Assembly: GCF_014269225.2 (NCBI RefSeq)
Contig: NZ_CP077097.1
Span: 4,103,001 to 4,167,000 of the forward strand
Origin: Pseudomonas anuradhapurensis
Lineage (GTDB): Bacteria > Pseudomonadota > Gammaproteobacteria > Pseudomonadales > Pseudomonadaceae
DNA length: 64,000 nucleotides
Reading direction: 5' to 3'
Below are positions 3,936 to 53,432 of this stretch, piece by piece. The translations under genes were made by a program, and so were the position numbers. The stretch's first letter is position 1; each line of letters begins with the position of its first letter. The notes under the pieces are model-generated. The model was not told the origin of the DNA. It made no database searches and saw only the letters and a list, made by a program, of their open reading frames with translations.

Positions 3936-3972
3936 TGGTGCCCGGGGCCGGGCACGCGAGGCGGGTGCAGGG

Positions 3973-3986
3973 TTGACCTGCGTCAA
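3973..3986. promoter_or_regulatory. Anr/FNR-like box 2 upstream of ccoM
   Basis: TTGACCTGCGTCAA is a symmetrical TTGAC-N4-GTCAA site, one change per half from the Anr/FNR consensus. It lies 51 bases upstream of box 1 and immediately after the stop of the small basic protein gene. A tandem arrangement suggests cooperative or modulated oxygen control of ccoM. Confidence 0.55.
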
Positions 3987-3989
3987 GTT

Positions 3990-4151
3990 TCAGCGCTTCT
4001 TCGGCTTGCCCTTGGGCTTCTTTTTCTTGCCGGTATTCAGCGGCAGCGCCTGTTCGAATGCGTTGCGCATTTCGTTCAGGCGCTTTTCCTTGAGGTCGTG
4101 GGCGCGCTTGGCGCGTTCGGCATCGAAATCGATGAGGTTGTCTTGGCTCAT
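3990..4151 (-). CDS. Small lysine-rich hypothetical protein
   Basis: This gene encodes 53 residues: MSQDNLIDFDAERAKRAHDL, a charged helical stretch, then a highly basic tail with GKKKKPKGKPKKR. It starts at an ATG and ends just upstream of the second Anr-like box. The N-terminal acidic/helical half and Lys/Pro-rich tail suggest nucleic-acid or ribosome association, but I do not recognise a functional family. Similar short proteins are, to my recollection, common in Pseudomonas genomes. Codon choice fits a real gene. Confidence 0.65.
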   Translation of the reverse strand: MSQDNLIDFDAERAKRAHDLKEKRLNEMRNAFEQALPLNTGKKKKPKGKPKKR

Positions 4152-4218
4152 GGGTGGGCTCGACGATCAACTGAGACTTGCATGATGAAGCCAGGCGCTG
4201 GCGCTGACCAGCCCCACC

Positions 4219-4545
4219 TCAGACTTCGATGTCCACCAGCAACCCTTGGCGTGCGTGCTCGCCCAACAGCGGCGCCACCGGGACGGTGTTGTCGGCGTTG
4301 ACCTCATCACCCGGCATCGCGCTGTAGCGCTCGTCGTCGTCCTTGCGCCGGCGTTGCTGGCGGCGTTGCTCGTCGCGCAGCAGCAGCGCCTGCTCCTGCG
4401 GGTCACGCTGGCGCTTGAGGTCGATGGCAGTTTCACTGGATGCCGGCTGCGTCGGTACCACCGGCTTGATGTCGGGGGTCGGCTTGACCGGATCCTGTTG
4501 TGAAGTCACCGGTGCGGCACTGAGCGGAATGAGCGGTGGCAACAT
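4219..4545 (-). CDS. Conserved hypothetical protein, Pro-rich N-terminus, charged centre
   Basis: This gene encodes 108 residues. The first 35 or so are Pro/Thr/Val-rich and probably disordered. A very charged Arg/Gln/Asp-rich segment (about residues 44-73, LKRQRDPQEQALLLRDEQRR) follows, then a short C-terminal part. There is no signal peptide or transmembrane helix. AGGAGAA precedes the ATG. I do not recognise a function. It is probably its own unit or read with the lipoprotein gene 62 bases upstream. Confidence 0.6.
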   Translation of the reverse strand: MLPPLIPLSAAPVTSQQDPVKPTPDIKPVVPTQPASSETAIDLKRQRDPQEQALLLRDEQRRQQRRRKDDDERYSAMPGDEVNADNTVPVAPLLGEHARQGLLVDIEV

Positions 4546-4607
4546 GAAGGTTCTCCTATGCCCTCTGTATCGGCAGGTGCAGATTTACCTGAAGGCATGG
4601 TCAAGCT

Positions 4608-5303
4608 TTATTCGGCTTCGTCGTCAGTATCGTCGTCGGCTGGCGGGCTGGCCTCGCTCCAGGGGCGCTTGTAAACCTGCTGCCAGACCGCGTCCATGTG
4701 CTCGCGCAGCACCTGCGGTGCGGATTTGAGCGAGGCACTGTCCTCGCGCTCACCGCCGATCGGCTCTTCACCCGCCGGGGTAATCAGCGACTGGCCGGTG
4801 ATGGTGTAGCTGGCCTGCCCTTCGCGCATCTCGATGGCAATGTCATGCGGGTCGATGCCGCCGCCACAGAAGGCGTGGCTGGCAACCGTCACCTCGGCGA
4901 CACCGTCCTTGTTCAGGTCACTGACGTCGCTGACGTCGTTGTAGAAATCCACATCCAGGTCCAGCCCCGGGCAAGTGGTTTCCTGCTCGATCTGCCAGCG
5001 CGCCTTGAACGCGTCGTTTTCGGCGCTGCGCCCGTACAACGTGGCCTTGAGCACCACCTTGTCCACTTCCTGTTCACTTTCCGGGTCGCTGGCCTGGCCA
5101 TCGCTGCGGCTCAGTACCAGCAGGCCTTCACCGTCGCGGTCACGAAAATGCACGCTCTTGATCGGCGTCTGCACGCCCAGTACTTCGAGCTGCTCCATCG
5201 GGATGGCGGGCAAGGTGGCGAAATTCTTCTGTTCGCAGGCGGCCAGCAGCAACAGGCTGCCCACGGCGATCGAGGTGCTGATCCAGCGGTGCTTGGCAGA
5301 CAT
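4608..5303 (-). CDS. Conserved lipoprotein with acidic calcium-like loop
   Basis: This 231-residue protein has a lipoprotein signal peptide with lipobox LLAAC (Cys about residue 23), so it should be anchored in the envelope. Residues around DLNKDGVAEVTVASHAFCGG resemble the D-x-N-x-D-G loop of FG-GAP or EF-hand-like proteins, followed by a CGGG turn. The C-terminal tail is rich in Asp and Glu. I recall similar proteins annotated as surface-polysaccharide-associated, but cannot confirm this. rapA is divergently transcribed upstream. Confidence 0.65.
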   Translation of the reverse strand: MSAKHRWISTSIAVGSLLLLAACEQKNFATLPAIPMEQLEVLGVQTPIKSVHFRDRDGEGLLVLSRSDGQASDPESEQEVDKVVLKATLYGRSAENDAFKARWQIEQETTCPGLDLDVDFYNDVSDVSDLNKDGVAEVTVASHAFCGGGIDPHDIAIEMREGQASYTITGQSLITPAGEEPIGGEREDSASLKSAPQVLREHMDAVWQQVYKRPWSEASPPADDDTDDEAE

Positions 5304-47802: not shown

Positions 47803-47960
47803 GGAGACTCCCATTGGCAAACTGAATGTAAAACAGGCGCCTATCCTAACCCGTCAATCGTCAGCAGATGTGCATGCGGGGTGAAATATCTTCGCCAGCC
47901 CTTTATAGTGGCCGATCAACCTCATTTTTACTCCGTCGCCAGATAAGTAGCCGAGCCACC

Positions 47961-50000
47961 ATGTCCGAGCCACGTCAGATTCTCGTCACCAGCGCCTTGC
48001 CCTATGCCAACGGATCGATCCACCTTGGCCATATGCTCGAGTACATCCAGACAGACATGTGGGTCCGCTTCCAGAAGCTGCGCGGCAACCAGTGCATCTA
48101 TGTCTGCGCCGACGACGCCCACGGTTCGGCCATCATGCTGCGCGCCGAGAAGGAAGGCATCACCCCGGAGCAGCTAATCGCCAACGTCCAGGCCGAACAC
48201 AGCAGCGACTTTGCCGACTTCCTGGTGGACTTCGATAACTTCCACTCCACCCACAGCGAAGAGAACCGCGAGCTGTCGAGCCTGATCTACACGCGCCTGC
48301 GTGAAGCCGGGCACATCGCCACCCGTTCGGTGACCCAGTACTTCGACCCGGAAAAGGGCATGTTCCTCGCCGACCGGTTCATCAAGGGCACCTGCCCCAA
48401 GTGCGCCGCCGAAGACCAGTACGGCGACAACTGCGAAAAATGCGGCGCCACCTATGCGCCCACCGAACTGAAGAACCCCAAGTCGGCCATTTCCGGTGCC
48501 ACCCCGGTACTGCGTGATTCCCAGCACTTCTTCTTCAAGCTGCCGGACTTCCAGGCCATGCTGCAGCAGTGGACCCGCAGCGGCACGCTGCAGGATGCGG
48601 TGGCCAACAAGCTGGCCGAATGGCTGGACTCGGGCCTGCAGGAGTGGGACATCTCCCGCGATGCGCCGTATTTCGGCTTCGAGATCCCGGGCGAGCCCGG
48701 CAAATACTTTTACGTATGGCTGGATGCACCGATCGGCTACATGGCCAGCTTCAAGAACCTCTGCGCACGCCGCCCGGAGCTGGACTTCGATGCCTTCTGG
48801 AACGAGGGCTCCAAGGCCGAGCTGTACCACTTCATCGGCAAGGACATCGTCAACTTCCACGCCCTGTTCTGGCCGGCCATGCTCGAAGGCGCCGGCTTCC
48901 GCAAGCCGACTGCGGTCAATGTCCACGGCTACCTGACCGTGAACGGCGCCAAGATGTCCAAGTCGCGTGGCACCTTCATCAAGGCCCGCACCTACCTCGA
49001 CCACCTGCAGCCCGAATACCTGCGTTACTACTACGCGGCCAAACTGGGCCGTGGCGTCGATGACCTGGACCTGAACCTGGAAGACTTCGTGCAGAAGGTC
49101 AACTCCGACCTGGTCGGCAAGGTGGTCAACATCGCCAGCCGCTGCGCCGGTTTCATTCACAAGGGCAATGCAGGCGTGATGGTTGCTGGCGATGCCGCAC
49201 CCGAGCTGAGCGAAGCCTTCCTGGCGGCCGCCCCGTCGATCGCCGAGGCCTATGAAGGCCGCGACTTCGGCCGTGCCATGCGCGAGATCATGGCACTGGC
49301 TGACCGCGCCAACGCCTGGATCGCCGACAAGGCGCCGTGGTCGCTGGCCAAACAGGAAGGCAAGCAGGATGAAGTGCAGGCCATCTGCGCCCAGGGCATC
49401 AACCTGTTCCGCCAACTGGTGATCTTCCTCAAGCCGGTGCTGCCAGTGCTGGCTGCCGACGCCGAAGCCTTCCTCAACGTGGCCCCGTTGACCTGGAACG
49501 ACCACCAGTCGCGCCTGGAAAACCACCAGCTGAACCCGTTCAAAGCGCTGATGAGCCGCATCGAGCCAGCCAAGGTCGAAGCCATGGTCGCCGCCAGCAA
49601 GGAAGACCTGTTGGCCGCCGAAGCCAAGGCCCCGGTCGGCAACGGCGAGCTGGCCAAGGACCCACTGTCGGCGGAAATCGAATTCGATACCTTCGCAGCC
49701 GTCGACCTGCGCGTAGCCCTTATCGTCAAGGCCGAAGCCGTACCGGGTGCCGACAAGCTGCTGCAACTGACCCTGGACATCGGCGACGAGCGCCGCAACG
49801 TGTTCTCGGGCATCAAGTCGGCCTACCCTGACCCGTCCAAGCTGGAAGGTCGCCTGACCATGATGGTGGCCAACCTCAAACCGCGGAAGATGCGCTTCGG
49901 CGTCTCCGAGGGCATGGTCATGGCGGCAGGCCCTGGCGGTGAAGAGATCTACCTGCTGAGCCCGGACAGCGGCGCCAAGCCAGGCCAGCGCATCAAGTAA
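47961..50000 (+). CDS. metG: Methionyl-tRNA synthetase
   Basis: MetG charges tRNA-Met in the cytosol. The 679 residues contain HLGH at 21-24, a zinc knuckle with [19 protein letters not shown] and KMSKS at residues 331-335. A C-terminal tRNA-binding (EMAP/Trbp111) domain (about 575-679) contains [15 protein letters not shown]. The ATG at 47961 matches the family start. A REP pair follows. Confidence 0.98.
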
Positions 50001-50168: not shown

Positions 50169-50702
50169 ATGAGCGATTACCTTCTGGTCCTGATCAGTGC
50201 CGCGCTGGTCAATCACCTATGCTTGTCACCACCGCCGGGCCCCAGGCTGCACCTGCATGTGCATGGCCTTGCCTGCGCGCTATGCATCGCACTGGGAGTG
50301 GTCGGCGCAAGGCTCGCGATGCCCCTGCTGGGCGAAGGTCTTGAGCTGTTCCTGCTGTTGCCCTGGCTGGCACTGCTCGCCTGGGGTGTGCCGTGGCTGC
50401 TGGCACGCTGGCAACCCGCCTGGCCAGTGGCGCAACTGCCCGCGCTACTACTGAGCAACGCGGCGGTGCTCGGGTTGGCCCTGCAACAGGCAAGCGACGA
50501 AGACACCGGGTTCGCCACCTTGCTGCAAGGGCTGCTGGCCGGCGCCAGCTTCTGGCTGGCGCTGGTCTTGTTCGCCGACCTGCGCCAGCGCTGCAGCCAC
50601 GCCGACATCCCTGGCGTTCTGCGCGGCCTGCCGATCGAGTTGCTCGGTGCCGGGGTGATGGCCATGGCATTTTCCGGCTTCAACGGATTGTTCAGCCAAT
50701 GA
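50169..50702 (+). CDS. RnfA-like membrane subunit lacking conserved cysteines
   Basis: This 177-residue inner-membrane protein begins MSDYLLVLISAALVN, as RnfA/RsxA does, and ends ADIPGVLRGLPIELLGAGVM, matching the canonical C-terminus. However the segment that should read NNFVLVKFLGLCPFMG is NHLCLSPPPGP, and the TTNCAVLG loop is SNAAVLG with Ala98 in place of the Cys. Both Cys residues help hold a membrane [2Fe-2S] cluster with RnfE in canonical complexes. It is therefore probably a divergent RnfA that cannot bind that cluster. It overlaps the rnfD gene by four bases. Confidence 0.8.
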   Translation: MSDYLLVLISAALVNHLCLSPPPGPRLHLHVHGLACALCIALGVVGARLAMPLLGEGLELFLLLPWLALLAWGVPWLLARWQPAWPVAQLPALLLSNAAVLGLALQQASDEDTGFATLLQGLLAGASFWLALVLFADLRQRCSHADIPGVLRGLPIELLGAGVMAMAFSGFNGLFSQ

Positions 50703-51673
50703 GCGCCAAGCCCGACCCGCGGCTGCGCACCAGCATGGGCCTGGTGTTGCTGGCCTGCGTACCCGGCTTGCTGGTCTTGTCATGGCTACATGGCTGGGGG
50801 TTGCTGCTGAACCTGTTGCTGTGCGCCAGTGCCGCAATGCTGTGCGAAGCCCTGTTGCTGCGGTTGCGCGGGCAAGCGCCGAGCCCCGCGCTGAACGACG
50901 GCAGCGCCCTGGTAACTGCCGTACTGTTGGCCGCCGCACTGCCCACCCAGGCGCCCTGGTGGCTACCGGTGACCGCCGCCAGCATTGCCATCGGTATCGG
51001 CAAGCAGGCCTTCGGCGGGGTCGGGCGCAACCTGTTCAATCCGGCCATGGTCGGTTATGTCTTCGTGCTGCTGAGCTTCCCGTTGCAAATGAACCATTGG
51101 CCCGAGCCGGCACCCGGCCTGCTCGACAGCCTGCAACAAGTCTTCGCCGGCGGCGAACAGATCGATGCCTGGGCCCGGCCGACACTGCTCGATGGCCTGC
51201 GCCACAATCGCAGCCTGACCATCGATGAGCTGTTCGCCAGCCACCCGGGCTTTGGCAGCATCGGCGGGCGTGGCAGCGAATGGGTGAACCTGGCGTTCCT
51301 GTTCGGCGGCCTGTTCCTGCTGCAGCGCAAGGTAATCAGCTGGCATGCGCCGGCTGGCTTGCTCGCAGGCCTGCTGCTTTTCAGCCTGCTGGGCTGGAAC
51401 GGATCGGGCTCGGACTCCAACGGCTCGCCCTTGCTGCACCTGTTTTCCGGCTCGACCATGATGGCCGCCTTCTTCATCGCCACCGAACCGGTGTCCGGCC
51501 CCCGGCATGAGTGGGCCAGGCTGCTGTTCGGCGTGGGTGCGGGTTTGCTGATCTACCTGATCCGCACCTGGGGCAGCTATCCGGATGGCACGGCGTTCGC
51601 CATCCTGCTGATGAACCTCCTGGCGCCGAGCCTTGAGCGCCTGGCGGCGCAGCGCCAGCAGGTTGCCCGATGA
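50699..51673 (+). CDS. RnfD-like membrane subunit
   Basis: This 324-residue integral membrane protein shows RnfD/NqrB features: LNDGSALVTAVLLAAALP, KQAFGGVGRNLFNPAMVGYV and the C-terminal LFSGSTMMAAFFIATEPVS. The covalent FMN site of RnfD (D-x-x-S-x-A-T) is represented by DAWARPT, so Asp and Thr162 are kept but the middle residues differ. FMN attachment is therefore possible but doubtful. It follows the RnfA-like gene directly; the rnfB and rnfC genes that normally lie between them are absent. Confidence 0.85.
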   Translation: MSAKPDPRLRTSMGLVLLACVPGLLVLSWLHGWGLLLNLLLCASAAMLCEALLLRLRGQAPSPALNDGSALVTAVLLAAALPTQAPWWLPVTAASIAIGIGKQAFGGVGRNLFNPAMVGYVFVLLSFPLQMNHWPEPAPGLLDSLQQVFAGGEQIDAWARPTLLDGLRHNRSLTIDELFASHPGFGSIGGRGSEWVNLAFLFGGLFLLQRKVISWHAPAGLLAGLLLFSLLGWNGSGSDSNGSPLLHLFSGSTMMAAFFIATEPVSGPRHEWARLLFGVGAGLLIYLIRTWGSYPDGTAFAILLMNLLAPSLERLAAQRQQVAR

Positions 51674-52272
51674 ATCGCCTGGTTCGCGATACAGCACTGT
51701 TGCTGGTGATTGCAGCACTGGCCTTGTCGGCCACCCTGGCCTGGCGGCATTGGACAAGTCCGGTCATCGCCGATGCAGCGAAACAGCTGCAAGGTCGTCA
51801 ACGGCTGGCGGTGTTGCCTGACGGCAGCTACGACAACCAGCCACTGGACAATCCACTGTCCAGGCCCGCCGCACAGCGAGCAAACAGCCGCATCCTGGCG
51901 GCTTACCGGGCCACGCTGGCGGGAAAACCGGCCGCCATCATTCTGGTTACCCAGACCCAAGGCTATGCCGGCCCGATCGTGCTGAGCGTCGCTATCAGCA
52001 CAGACGGTCGGCTGATCGGCAGCCAGGTACTCGAACAACAGGAAAGCCCCGGGCTGGGAGCACGCCTGGGGGACCCACAGGTGAACTGGTTAGGGCAATT
52101 TGCCAGTCGACAGCTGGGCGACCATTGGGCGCTGAAACGTGACCAGGGCGACTTCGACCAGTTGGCCGGCGCCACCGTGACCTCACGCGCAGTGATCAGC
52201 GCACTGCAAGAAGCGCTCGGTTATTTCGACGAGCAGCGCAACGTGCTGCTGGAGGGCACCCAGGATGAATAG
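51670..52272 (+). CDS. rnfG: RnfG-like periplasmic flavoprotein subunit
   Basis: This 200-residue protein has an N-terminal membrane anchor (about residues 8-25) and a periplasmic FMN-binding domain. The covalent FMN site is DQLAGATVTS with Thr169; the S/T usually before GAT is Ala. The QGYAGPIVLSVAIS and QQESPGLGARLGD segments are typical RnfG. ApbE attaches FMN to RnfG; no apbE flavin-transferase gene is in the window. It overlaps rnfD by four bases. Confidence 0.85.
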   Translation: MNRLVRDTALLLVIAALALSATLAWRHWTSPVIADAAKQLQGRQRLAVLPDGSYDNQPLDNPLSRPAAQRANSRILAAYRATLAGKPAAIILVTQTQGYAGPIVLSVAISTDGRLIGSQVLEQQESPGLGARLGDPQVNWLGQFASRQLGDHWALKRDQGDFDQLAGATVTSRAVISALQEALGYFDEQRNVLLEGTQDE

Positions 52273-52789
52273 GTTCCATCTGCTTGGCACAAGCCTGGTG
52301 CCGCTGCTGGGCGCCACCCGGACACTGAGCGAAGGCGCTACCATCGGTGTGTGCGCGGTGTTGATGAGCGGCCTGCACCAGTTGCTGCTAGCGCCTCTGC
52401 GCCACAGGCTTGCCGGGTGGGCGCTCATGCTGGCCAGCCTGCTGTTGCTGGCGGCGCTGGCCAGTTGCCTGCAACTGGCGCTGCGTGCCTGGCTGCTACC
52501 GCTGGCACTCGCCCTCGGCCACTACCCCGCGTTGCTGTGCGTGCAATGCCTGGCCACCGACCACTTGCTGCCCATCCAAGGGCGCTGGCGTCTGCTTGCC
52601 AGGTACCTTGCCGCATTGCTTGCCAGCTGCCTGTTGCTCGGTGCCAGCCGGCAATGGCTGGCGGAGATTGCCGGCCTGCACCTGGCCAACCTGGCCCCCG
52701 GCGCCCTGATACTGCTCGGACTGCTGTGGGCCTTGTACAATCGCCTGCATACGGGCCCTGCCCACCCACGTCGTCAAGGAACGCCCTGA
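52265..52789 (+). CDS. RnfE-like membrane subunit, shortened
   Basis: This 174-residue membrane protein (canonical RnfE about 230) aligns with the first RnfE segment as LLGTSLVPLLGATRTL against LLGLCPLLAVTSTA, so the cluster Cys is Val12. The C-terminal LAPGALILLGLLWAL matches PPGAFIGLGLMLA. A Cys-rich stretch LLCVQC stands near the second canonical Cys. It overlaps rnfG by eight bases and is followed by nth, the usual rnf gene order. Confidence 0.7.
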   Translation: MNRFHLLGTSLVPLLGATRTLSEGATIGVCAVLMSGLHQLLLAPLRHRLAGWALMLASLLLLAALASCLQLALRAWLLPLALALGHYPALLCVQCLATDHLLPIQGRWRLLARYLAALLASCLLLGASRQWLAEIAGLHLANLAPGALILLGLLWALYNRLHTGPAHPRRQGTP

Positions 52790-52793
52790 TTTC

Positions 52794-53432
52794 ATGAATG
52801 CCGCCAAACGCCTGGAGATCTTTCGCAGGCTGCACGAAGACAACCCCGAGCCGAAGACCGAACTGGCCTACTCCACCCCGTTCGAACTGCTGGTCGCCGT
52901 GACCCTGTCCGCGCAAGCCACCGACGTGGGCGTCAACAAGGCCACTGCCCGCCTGTTTCCGGTCGCCAACACCCCCGAAGCCATCCATGCCCTGGGCGTC
53001 GAAGGCCTGAGCGAGTACATCAAGACCATCGGCCTGTATAACAGCAAGGCGAAAAACGTCATCGAGGCCTGTCGGCTGCTGATCGAGCGCCATGGCGGCC
53101 AGGTACCGCAGACCCGCGAAGCGCTGGAGGCGTTGCCTGGCGTAGGCCGCAAGACCGCCAACGTGGTGCTGAACACCGCGTTTCGCCAACCGACCATGGC
53201 GGTGGATACCCATATCTTCAGGGTCAGCAACCGCACAGGCATCGCGCCAGGCAAGACGGTGCTGGAAGTGGAGAAAAAGCTGATCAAGTTCGTCCCCAAG
53301 GAGTACCTGCTCGACGCCCACCACTGGTTGATCCTGCACGGGCGCTATGTGTGCCAGGCCCGTAAACCAAGGTGCGGCAGCTGCCGCATCGAAGATCTGT
53401 GCGAGTACAAGCACAAGACTTCAAACGATTGA
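52794..53432 (+). CDS. nth: Endonuclease III
   Basis: Nth is a DNA glycosylase/AP lyase that removes oxidised pyrimidines. The 212 residues show the helix-hairpin-helix LPGVGRKTANVV with catalytic Lys120 and the Asp138 in AVDTH, and the [4Fe-4S] ligands Cys187, Cys194, Cys197 and Cys203. All match E. coli numbering. In P. aeruginosa nth also follows rnfE. Confidence 0.98.
   Translation: MNAAKRLEIFRRLHEDNPEPKTELAYSTPFELLVAVTLSAQATDVGVNKATARLFPVANTPEAIHALGVEGLSEYIKTIGLYNSKAKNVIEACRLLIERHGGQVPQTREALEALPGVGRKTANVVLNTAFRQPTMAVDTHIFRVSNRTGIAPGKTVLEVEKKLIKFVPKEYLLDAHHWLILHGRYVCQARKPRCGSCRIEDLCEYKHKTSND

Follow-up and report, generated by a model that had tools for sequence, protein, structure and literature searches.

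Conserved flavin sites and purifying selection point to a probably maintained flavin module in a Pseudomonas Rnf-type locus without RnfB and RnfC

The Rnf complex (RnfABCDGE, or RsxABCDGE) is a ferredoxin:NAD+ (nicotinamide adenine dinucleotide) oxidoreductase and, in Escherichia coli, the SoxR-reducing system. Its RnfC subunit provides the NADH/flavin mononucleotide (FMN) and 4Fe-4S input, and RnfB the ferredoxin-type input. What, then, could be the role of an Rnf-type locus from which both are missing? Such a locus, with homologues of RnfA, RnfD, RnfG and RnfE only (hereafter ADGE), is found in Pseudomonas anuradhapurensis within the window analyzed here (64,000 nucleotides, positions 4,103,001 to 4,167,000 of contig NZ_CP077097.1). 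A sequence-only reading had offered two answers: either the operon is decaying, or it encodes a flavin complex that has been repurposed to work independently of RnfB and RnfC. We examined directly which genes are present, how well key sites are conserved, how selection acts and whether apbE is retained together with the locus. The results favor the repurposed complex: we put at roughly 0.6 the probability that the locus encodes a membrane flavin module that is maintained, is flavinylated by ApbE and is no longer coupled to input from the cytosol. That its function has been repurposed is itself something that we infer.

The four genes, all on the forward (+) strand, follow the order seen in Rnf/Rsx and encode an RnfA-like membrane protein (50169..50702, 177 residues), RnfD (50699..51673, 324 residues), RnfG (51670..52272, 200 residues) and an RnfE-like membrane protein (52265..52789, 174 residues). 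The ATGA overlap between the RnfA stop and the RnfD start, already pointed out, is confirmed by the open reading frame (ORF) coordinates; the same overlap occurs at the D/G junction, while G and E share 8 bases. The locus is bounded at its 5' end by metG (47958..50000, +, in a reading frame that opens at 47868) and at its 3' end, after a gap of 4 bases, by nth (52794..53432, +), which encodes endonuclease III (212 residues; TIGR01083, 284.9 bits). The four ORFs between metG and nth are open and overlapping, which bears out the initial description of A, D, G and E followed by nth without rnfB or rnfC. This position is that of the full Pseudomonas operon (loci L090-L092).

RnfD and RnfG are unambiguous by Pfam/NCBIfam scores, both being above the cut-offs of their families (346 vs 207 bits for TIGR01946 rnfD and 173 vs 102 bits for TIGR01947 rnfG). 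RnfD, which contains a conserved GxGSDSxGSP segment, matches the solved chain 8ahx_D with an expect value (E) of 8e-59, and sequence searches against solved structures are consistent with the Rnf assignments of the locus. The two other proteins are much diverged from Rnf/Rsx. The RnfA-like protein is above the PF02508 cut-off (43.7 vs 23.8 bits) and below that of TIGR01943 rnfA (62 vs 229 bits), while the RnfE-like protein is barely above PF02508 (26.4 vs 23.8 bits) and below TIGR01948 rnfE (33 vs 213 bits). Both were also modeled with AlphaFold. The RnfA-like model, with a mean pLDDT (predicted local distance difference test) of 83.8, has solved RnfA/NqrE chains as its top Foldseek matches. 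The RnfE-like model, with a moderate pLDDT of 76.5, points to solved RnfE/NqrD chains, the best match having an E value of 0.0035 and a TM (template modeling) score of 0.72, with none under 0.001. Both models superpose on solved chains with TM scores of about 0.66-0.75 by query length. As judged from these models, A and E are diverged PF02508 members with the predicted RnfA and RnfE fold, and we rejected the idea that the RnfE-like protein is some other protein.

Could the missing subunits be encoded elsewhere? The genome is a single 5.39 Mb contig rated 100% complete, and whole-genome profile searches rule this out. The best rnfC match reaches 56.5 bits against a cut-off of 246, and the best rnfB match 40.9 bits against 68.7, although generic ferredoxins are present among the rnfB-profile matches below cut-off. 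No further PF02508 protein was found besides A and E of the locus, in the whole genome and at E values up to 10, so that neither rnfB and rnfC nor canonical RnfA/E copies, which would have contradicted the initial reading, are found in this genome. The search for apbE that it had called for returned one ApbE above cut-off, unlinked to the Rnf-type locus and located between what appear, from the sequence, to be a glyceraldehyde-3-phosphate-dehydrogenase-like gene and sthA. There is likewise one RnfD-family match and one FMN_bind (PF04205) match, the latter being RnfG of the window, which is thus the sole candidate ApbE client of that family. Nor, judged on the nqrB, nqrC and PF02508 profiles, is the locus of the Na+-NQR (Na+-translocating NADH:quinone oxidoreductase) type, in which NqrB, NqrC, NqrD and NqrE are homologues of RnfD, RnfG, RnfE and RnfA. 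In contrast to Na+-NQR, the D protein scores 346 bits as rnfD and only 123 as nqrB (cut-off 350), G scores 29 bits against the nqrC cut-off of 144, and there is no separate NqrD/NqrE pair, the PF02508 pair of the locus being the single one in the genome.

We then asked how widespread this gene content is, in a survey of 249 genomes of the genus in which family matches were counted genome-wide and rnfC was taken as canonical when scoring >550 bits ("without C" meaning without canonical rnfC). Matches above cut-off were found for rnfD in 175 genomes, for rnfB in 215 and for rnfC in 36, 31 of them canonical. The genomes fall into five classes by content: B and D occur together with canonical C in 31 and as a pair in 123, D occurs without B in 22 (the class of the window genome) and B without D in 61, and 12 have neither. 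One genome (G034), initially rnfD-negative, was moved to the rnfD-positive ones on account of frameshifts. Gene order between metG and nth was read in fetched loci, of which 75 were classed: three are A-B-C-D-G-E, 37 are A-B'-D-G-E, 22 are A-D-G-E and 13 have B' alone, B' being the anchorless RnfB described below. The metG-A-D-G-E-nth order was confirmed in 22/22 fetched loci of the D-without-B class. The B'-only loci come from 13 of the 62 genomes with rnfB and without rnfD (61 after G034 was moved), chosen from listed rnfB coordinates. A further 11 fetched genomes, out of the 12 with neither B nor D, have metG then nth without any Rnf-type gene, save for one B' remnant. Among titled loci, the best 80 of 437 were kept, some from the same genomes as unnamed ones; 34 are A-D-G-E and 46 have B'. 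The A-D-G-E strains include ones named Pseudomonas putida, P. monteilii, P. entomophila, P. mosselii, P. plecoglossicida, P. soli and P. japonica, while B' is present in other strains named P. putida. To judge by these neighbors, the organism of the window probably belongs with P. putida and its relatives. Identical gene content in 22 genomes of the survey and in 34 of the titled loci, two sets that overlap, rules out a sequencing or assembly artifact. All four frames are open in 21/22 surveyed and 34/34 titled ADGE-only loci, with near-constant lengths. The initial view of the operon as peculiar to this genome did not hold, the cysteine replacements and the lack of canonical rnfC being found in most of the genus sample.

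Conservation at the cofactor sites differs between A/E and D/G. In Rnf/Nqr structures, four cysteines of RnfA and RnfE hold a membrane [2Fe-2S] cluster, and threonines of RnfD and RnfG carry flavin. In the window, A has neither the GLCP nor the TNC motif and thus neither cysteine, while in E the first cysteine is replaced by Val and the second (C95) is retained, which leaves RnfE C95 as the only one of the four. RnfG has T169 in AGAT. These motifs agree with what had been read from the sequence, and we add the flavin threonine of RnfD, T253 in SGST, which had gone unmentioned; the D and G flavin sites (G-A/S-T) are kept as in Rnf/Rsx. We then pooled site counts over distinct reduced proteins, with identical ones removed (81+55 for A, 79+56 for E, and 83+56 for D and G before removal). 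Cluster cysteines are found at either RnfA site in 0/118 proteins, with or without B'. At the first site, Asp, an acidic residue in place of a former ligand, is present in 57/75 proteins from loci with B', and the region is deleted in 38/43 from loci without it; at the second site, the residue is mostly Ala. The first RnfE cysteine is kept in 0/117. Cysteines within three columns of the lost sites occur in 4/118 A proteins (second site) and 3/117 E proteins (first site). By contrast with these sites, the flavin residue is Thr or Ser in 121/121 RnfD (98 Thr) and 121/121 RnfG (114 Thr). All four cysteine motifs are kept in 3/3 canonical loci. Measured by entropy, the G site is well conserved in loci with B', where 24/213 columns rank above it, and less so in those without B', where 67/213 do.

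Selection follows the same division. We fitted codon models to canonical loci (five for A and B, 11 for D, G and E), to loci with B' (30/37, after removal of L073 and of rows in which one of the genes had not been called) and to loci without B' (L061 being excluded from the A alignments and the ADGE set). In this order, omega (the dN/dS ratio) is 0.016, 0.193 and 0.215 for A, 0.067, 0.115 and 0.100 for D, 0.112, 0.171 and 0.133 for G, and 0.056, 0.212 and 0.282 for E. The flavin subunits D and G are therefore near canonical constraint, and the loss of B' has not relaxed them further; the former cluster subunits A and E are relaxed. The neighboring nth has an omega of 0.025 with B' and 0.023 without. 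For B, omega is 0.039 in canonical loci and, estimated from the first 150 residues, 0.068 for B' with ADGE and 0.070 for B' in the 13 fetched genomes without ADGE. Fixing omega at 1 in ADGE-only loci (best of four kappas) worsens the fit by 313 log units for A, 1077 for D, 619 for G and 219 for E.

The presence of apbE goes with that of rnfD, with some exceptions. When the 31 genomes that have canonical rnfC are set aside, apbE occurs in 145/145 genomes with rnfD, as against 17/73 without it (G034 corrected). For the rnfD-positive genomes apbE presence is taken from the genome survey, and its linkage with sthA was examined in three genomes (the window's, G034 and G036). On the tree, 8/9 independent pairs agree and none oppose (sign test, P = 0.008), in a test that omits seven exceptions with apbE and without rnfD and whose P value thus favors co-retention; when distant ApbE paralogues are counted as present, the median P is 0.016. 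The 17 genomes with apbE and without rnfD are heterogeneous. Three (G001, G147 and G164) have apbE near RnfD- and RnfA-family matches resembling nqr genes, five have only a distant paralogue (31-35% identical), and seven have an sthA-linked apbE; the remaining two are G065, where the loss of ADGE looks recent, and G223, which is only 73% complete.

How might the locus have reached this state? Its closest relative is the A-B'-D-G-E operon of most other sampled Pseudomonas, which has the same position, no canonical rnfC and the same cysteine losses in A and E, and from which the lineage of the window differs in having also lost B'. Because B'-bearing genomes show the same cysteine replacements, these look older than the loss of rnfB. 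B' begins immediately ahead of the cluster motif of RnfB and has no counterpart of the membrane anchor found in the canonical protein. The long tail of B' resembles the C-terminal repeats of canonical RnfC (43% identity over 249 residues, E value of 1e-49 with no composition correction; 49% over 186 residues, 6e-31 when composition-corrected), in a two-sequence comparison of an alanine-rich repeat region. The lack of an anchor and the RnfC-like tail make it seem, at the sequence level, that rnfC lost its front part and that the remaining tail became joined to an rnfB without anchor. The same combination of RnfB ferredoxin part and RnfC-like repeats is seen at L081:3346-4554 and in other A-B'-D-G-E and B'-only loci. 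A-B'-D-G-E then appears as the evident ancestral state, from which B' would later have been removed in ADGE-only genomes. At one locus (L037), the first nine codons of B' remain between A and D, at the junction that in the window lies at 50696..50704 (+) and that B' occupies in relatives by gene order. A metG+nth tree of 81 rows counts changes and gives no direction. In its best version, B must have changed at least 4 times across the rows that have rnfD, and D at least 7 times across those that have B; if only well-supported branches are considered, 3 changes are still needed to explain the ADGE-only group and 4 to explain the B'-only group.

In the proposed module, the unlinked ApbE would attach FMN to T253 of RnfD and T169 of RnfG, as in ApbE-flavinylated redox modules, which the locus resembles in having ApbE in the genome and Thr/Ser target sites in its FMN_bind and RnfD/NqrB proteins. 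RnfA and RnfE would stay chiefly as a membrane scaffold and, because they would no longer hold a trans-membrane [2Fe-2S] relay, there would be no electron transfer to or from cytosolic RnfB/RnfC. The remaining flavin pair, on the membrane/periplasmic side, would most likely exchange electrons between the quinone pool, via RnfD (a relative of NqrB), and an extracytoplasmic partner, as suggested by the position of the flavins in Rnf/Nqr. These proposed points (attachment of FMN, a protein without the cluster, A and E as scaffold, the connection to quinone and the way in which electrons run) are drawn from the biochemistry of Rnf/Nqr. A wider proposal, for which the odds are in our view somewhat short of even, is that Rnf has split into two independently selected parts, a soluble B' ferredoxin with an RnfC tail and a flavin-only ADGE + ApbE module working with neither NADH/ferredoxin input nor the trans-membrane iron-sulfur cluster (i.e., a cytosol-independent quinone/periplasm relay), each of which survives alone in different species.

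Several observations weigh against a maintained flavin module. The second RnfE cysteine is kept in 112/117 proteins, which a pure scaffold leaves unexplained. The entropy of the D site is middling (135/343 columns are more conserved) because of Thr/Ser exchange and of the conservation of D as a whole, and only the Thr/Ser state of the D and G sites is fully fixed. Seven genomes without rnfD (G051, G056, G066, G086, G094, G192 and G212) keep an sthA-linked apbE, so that apbE is not tied to RnfD/G alone. A and E have omega values some 4- to 13-fold above canonical (with only five loci for canonical A); median pairwise dN/dS values, at 0.35 for A, 0.20 for D, 0.31 for G and 0.42 for E, exceed those of the codon models, and single E pairs reach 1.0. 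In one locus (L061, of G245; 3953-5178), RnfA is in frame over its C-terminal half only, with D, G and E open. The ADGE block is missing from 73/249 genomes (61 with B only and 12 with neither) and is thus dispensable. Finally, 3/22 ADGE-only genomes (G057, G072 and G103), the window's not among them, have above cut-off a second type of rnfC and its own rnfD-like gene elsewhere.

Some of these points are what would be expected under slow decay, the main rival, in which Rnf lost C, then its cluster ligands, then B, and ADGE is eroding toward full loss. The absence of ADGE from many genomes, the relaxation of A and E and the broken A of L061 all fit, as does G065, in which ADGE is lost, apbE is kept and a B'-tail piece (42%, 53 bits) persists next to metG, between metG and nth. 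Against this stand the four frames, open in 21/22 and 34/34 loci and of near-constant length, which also led us to reject decay by frameshift (A of L061 apart), and the strong rejection of omega = 1 for every gene. The dN/dS near 1 with frameshifts in relatives that the sequence-only reading had named as a sign of decay is not what is found, the ratios being well under 1. Also against decay are Thr/Ser in 121/121 flavin sites of both D and G, apbE in all 145 rnfD-bearing genomes without canonical rnfC, and an omega of D and G that is not raised where B is absent. We consider slow decay unlikely.

Even less probable, in our estimation, is a full trans-membrane path in which an unlinked ferredoxin or flavoprotein replaces RnfB/C, generic ferredoxins occurring in the genome, and the A/E cluster is rebuilt on RnfE C68, C92 and C95 and RnfA C18, C36 and C39. 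The clade of the window has cysteines in RnfA at C18, C36 and C39 (the last two in a CxxC) and in RnfE at C30, C68, C92 and C95 (CxxC) and C122. All eight are present together in 21/55 ADGE-only loci, window included. In favor of such a path, C68 is, like C95, widely kept in RnfE (107/117), RnfA C36 and RnfE C92 occur together in 30/55 ADGE-only loci (C36 alone in 3, C92 alone in 0), and the conservation of the RnfE cysteines in the clade (0.99) is equaled by 3.6% of sets of hydrophobic positions drawn at random. On the other hand, 75% of such sets equal the conservation of the RnfA cysteines, which thus do not stand out from other hydrophobic residues, no RnfA has a cysteine at the old sites, and both A and E are relaxed. 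Each cysteine changes about twice on the tree with no independent supporting pair, and two loci with B' (L049 and L070) break the link by having E C92 without A C36. A re-evolved cysteine cluster was thus rejected, the clade-specific pattern being striking and without independent events to back it; a putative new intramembrane cysteine site in this clade would go back to one or two events. That ADGE is kept merely through its position between metG and nth (e.g., by translational coupling to nth), as the 4-base gap between E and nth and the overlap of the four genes might suggest, is very improbable, since 11 fetched genomes have metG-nth without ADGE (one with a B' remnant), 13 have B' only, and position explains neither flavin-site nor apbE retention.

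A few loci deserve separate mention. The second-type rnfC is the only one, and at another locus, in G021, G057, G072, G093 and G103, G021 and G093 belonging to the B-and-D class. In G057, this second locus (L110:2589-6200) has RnfC-like and RnfD-like genes and a divergent ApbE gene, with histidine kinases further off, and the 18 ORFs scanned contain neither a PF02508 nor an FMN_bind match; rnfC matches of 372-404 bits, as at this locus, are found in nine other genomes. G022 was placed in the full class; besides a locus of the B' type, it has a separate full set, with its rnfC, on a different contig. In G034 (L163 and L164), frameshifts split metG, rnfB', rnfD, nth and apbE alike, which looks like an assembly error; frameshifted genomes of this kind can mislead presence/absence counts. 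The apparent absence of E or A in L078, L079, L080 and L094 was rejected, divergent forms missed only by blastp being present. Two loci titled Pantoea sp. (L199 from Cy-639 and L205 from Ap-967) are of the Pseudomonas type, with RnfD identities of 76% and 75%, and probably come from misnamed Pseudomonas.

These findings bear on how such genomes are annotated. Family models label the genes "Rnf" or "Rsx", and metabolic models could wrongly assign to these bacteria a pump of the ferredoxin:NAD+ type or a reductase for SoxR, neither of which they can have as it is known. Should the module be functional, it would be a case of Rnf/Nqr flavins separated from the iron-sulfur wire, offering a minimal and genetically easy system in which the RnfD/RnfG flavins can be studied alone. 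Since the genome has a single ApbE, a single RnfD and a single RnfG, both the flavinylation and the purpose of this module would be genetically tractable.

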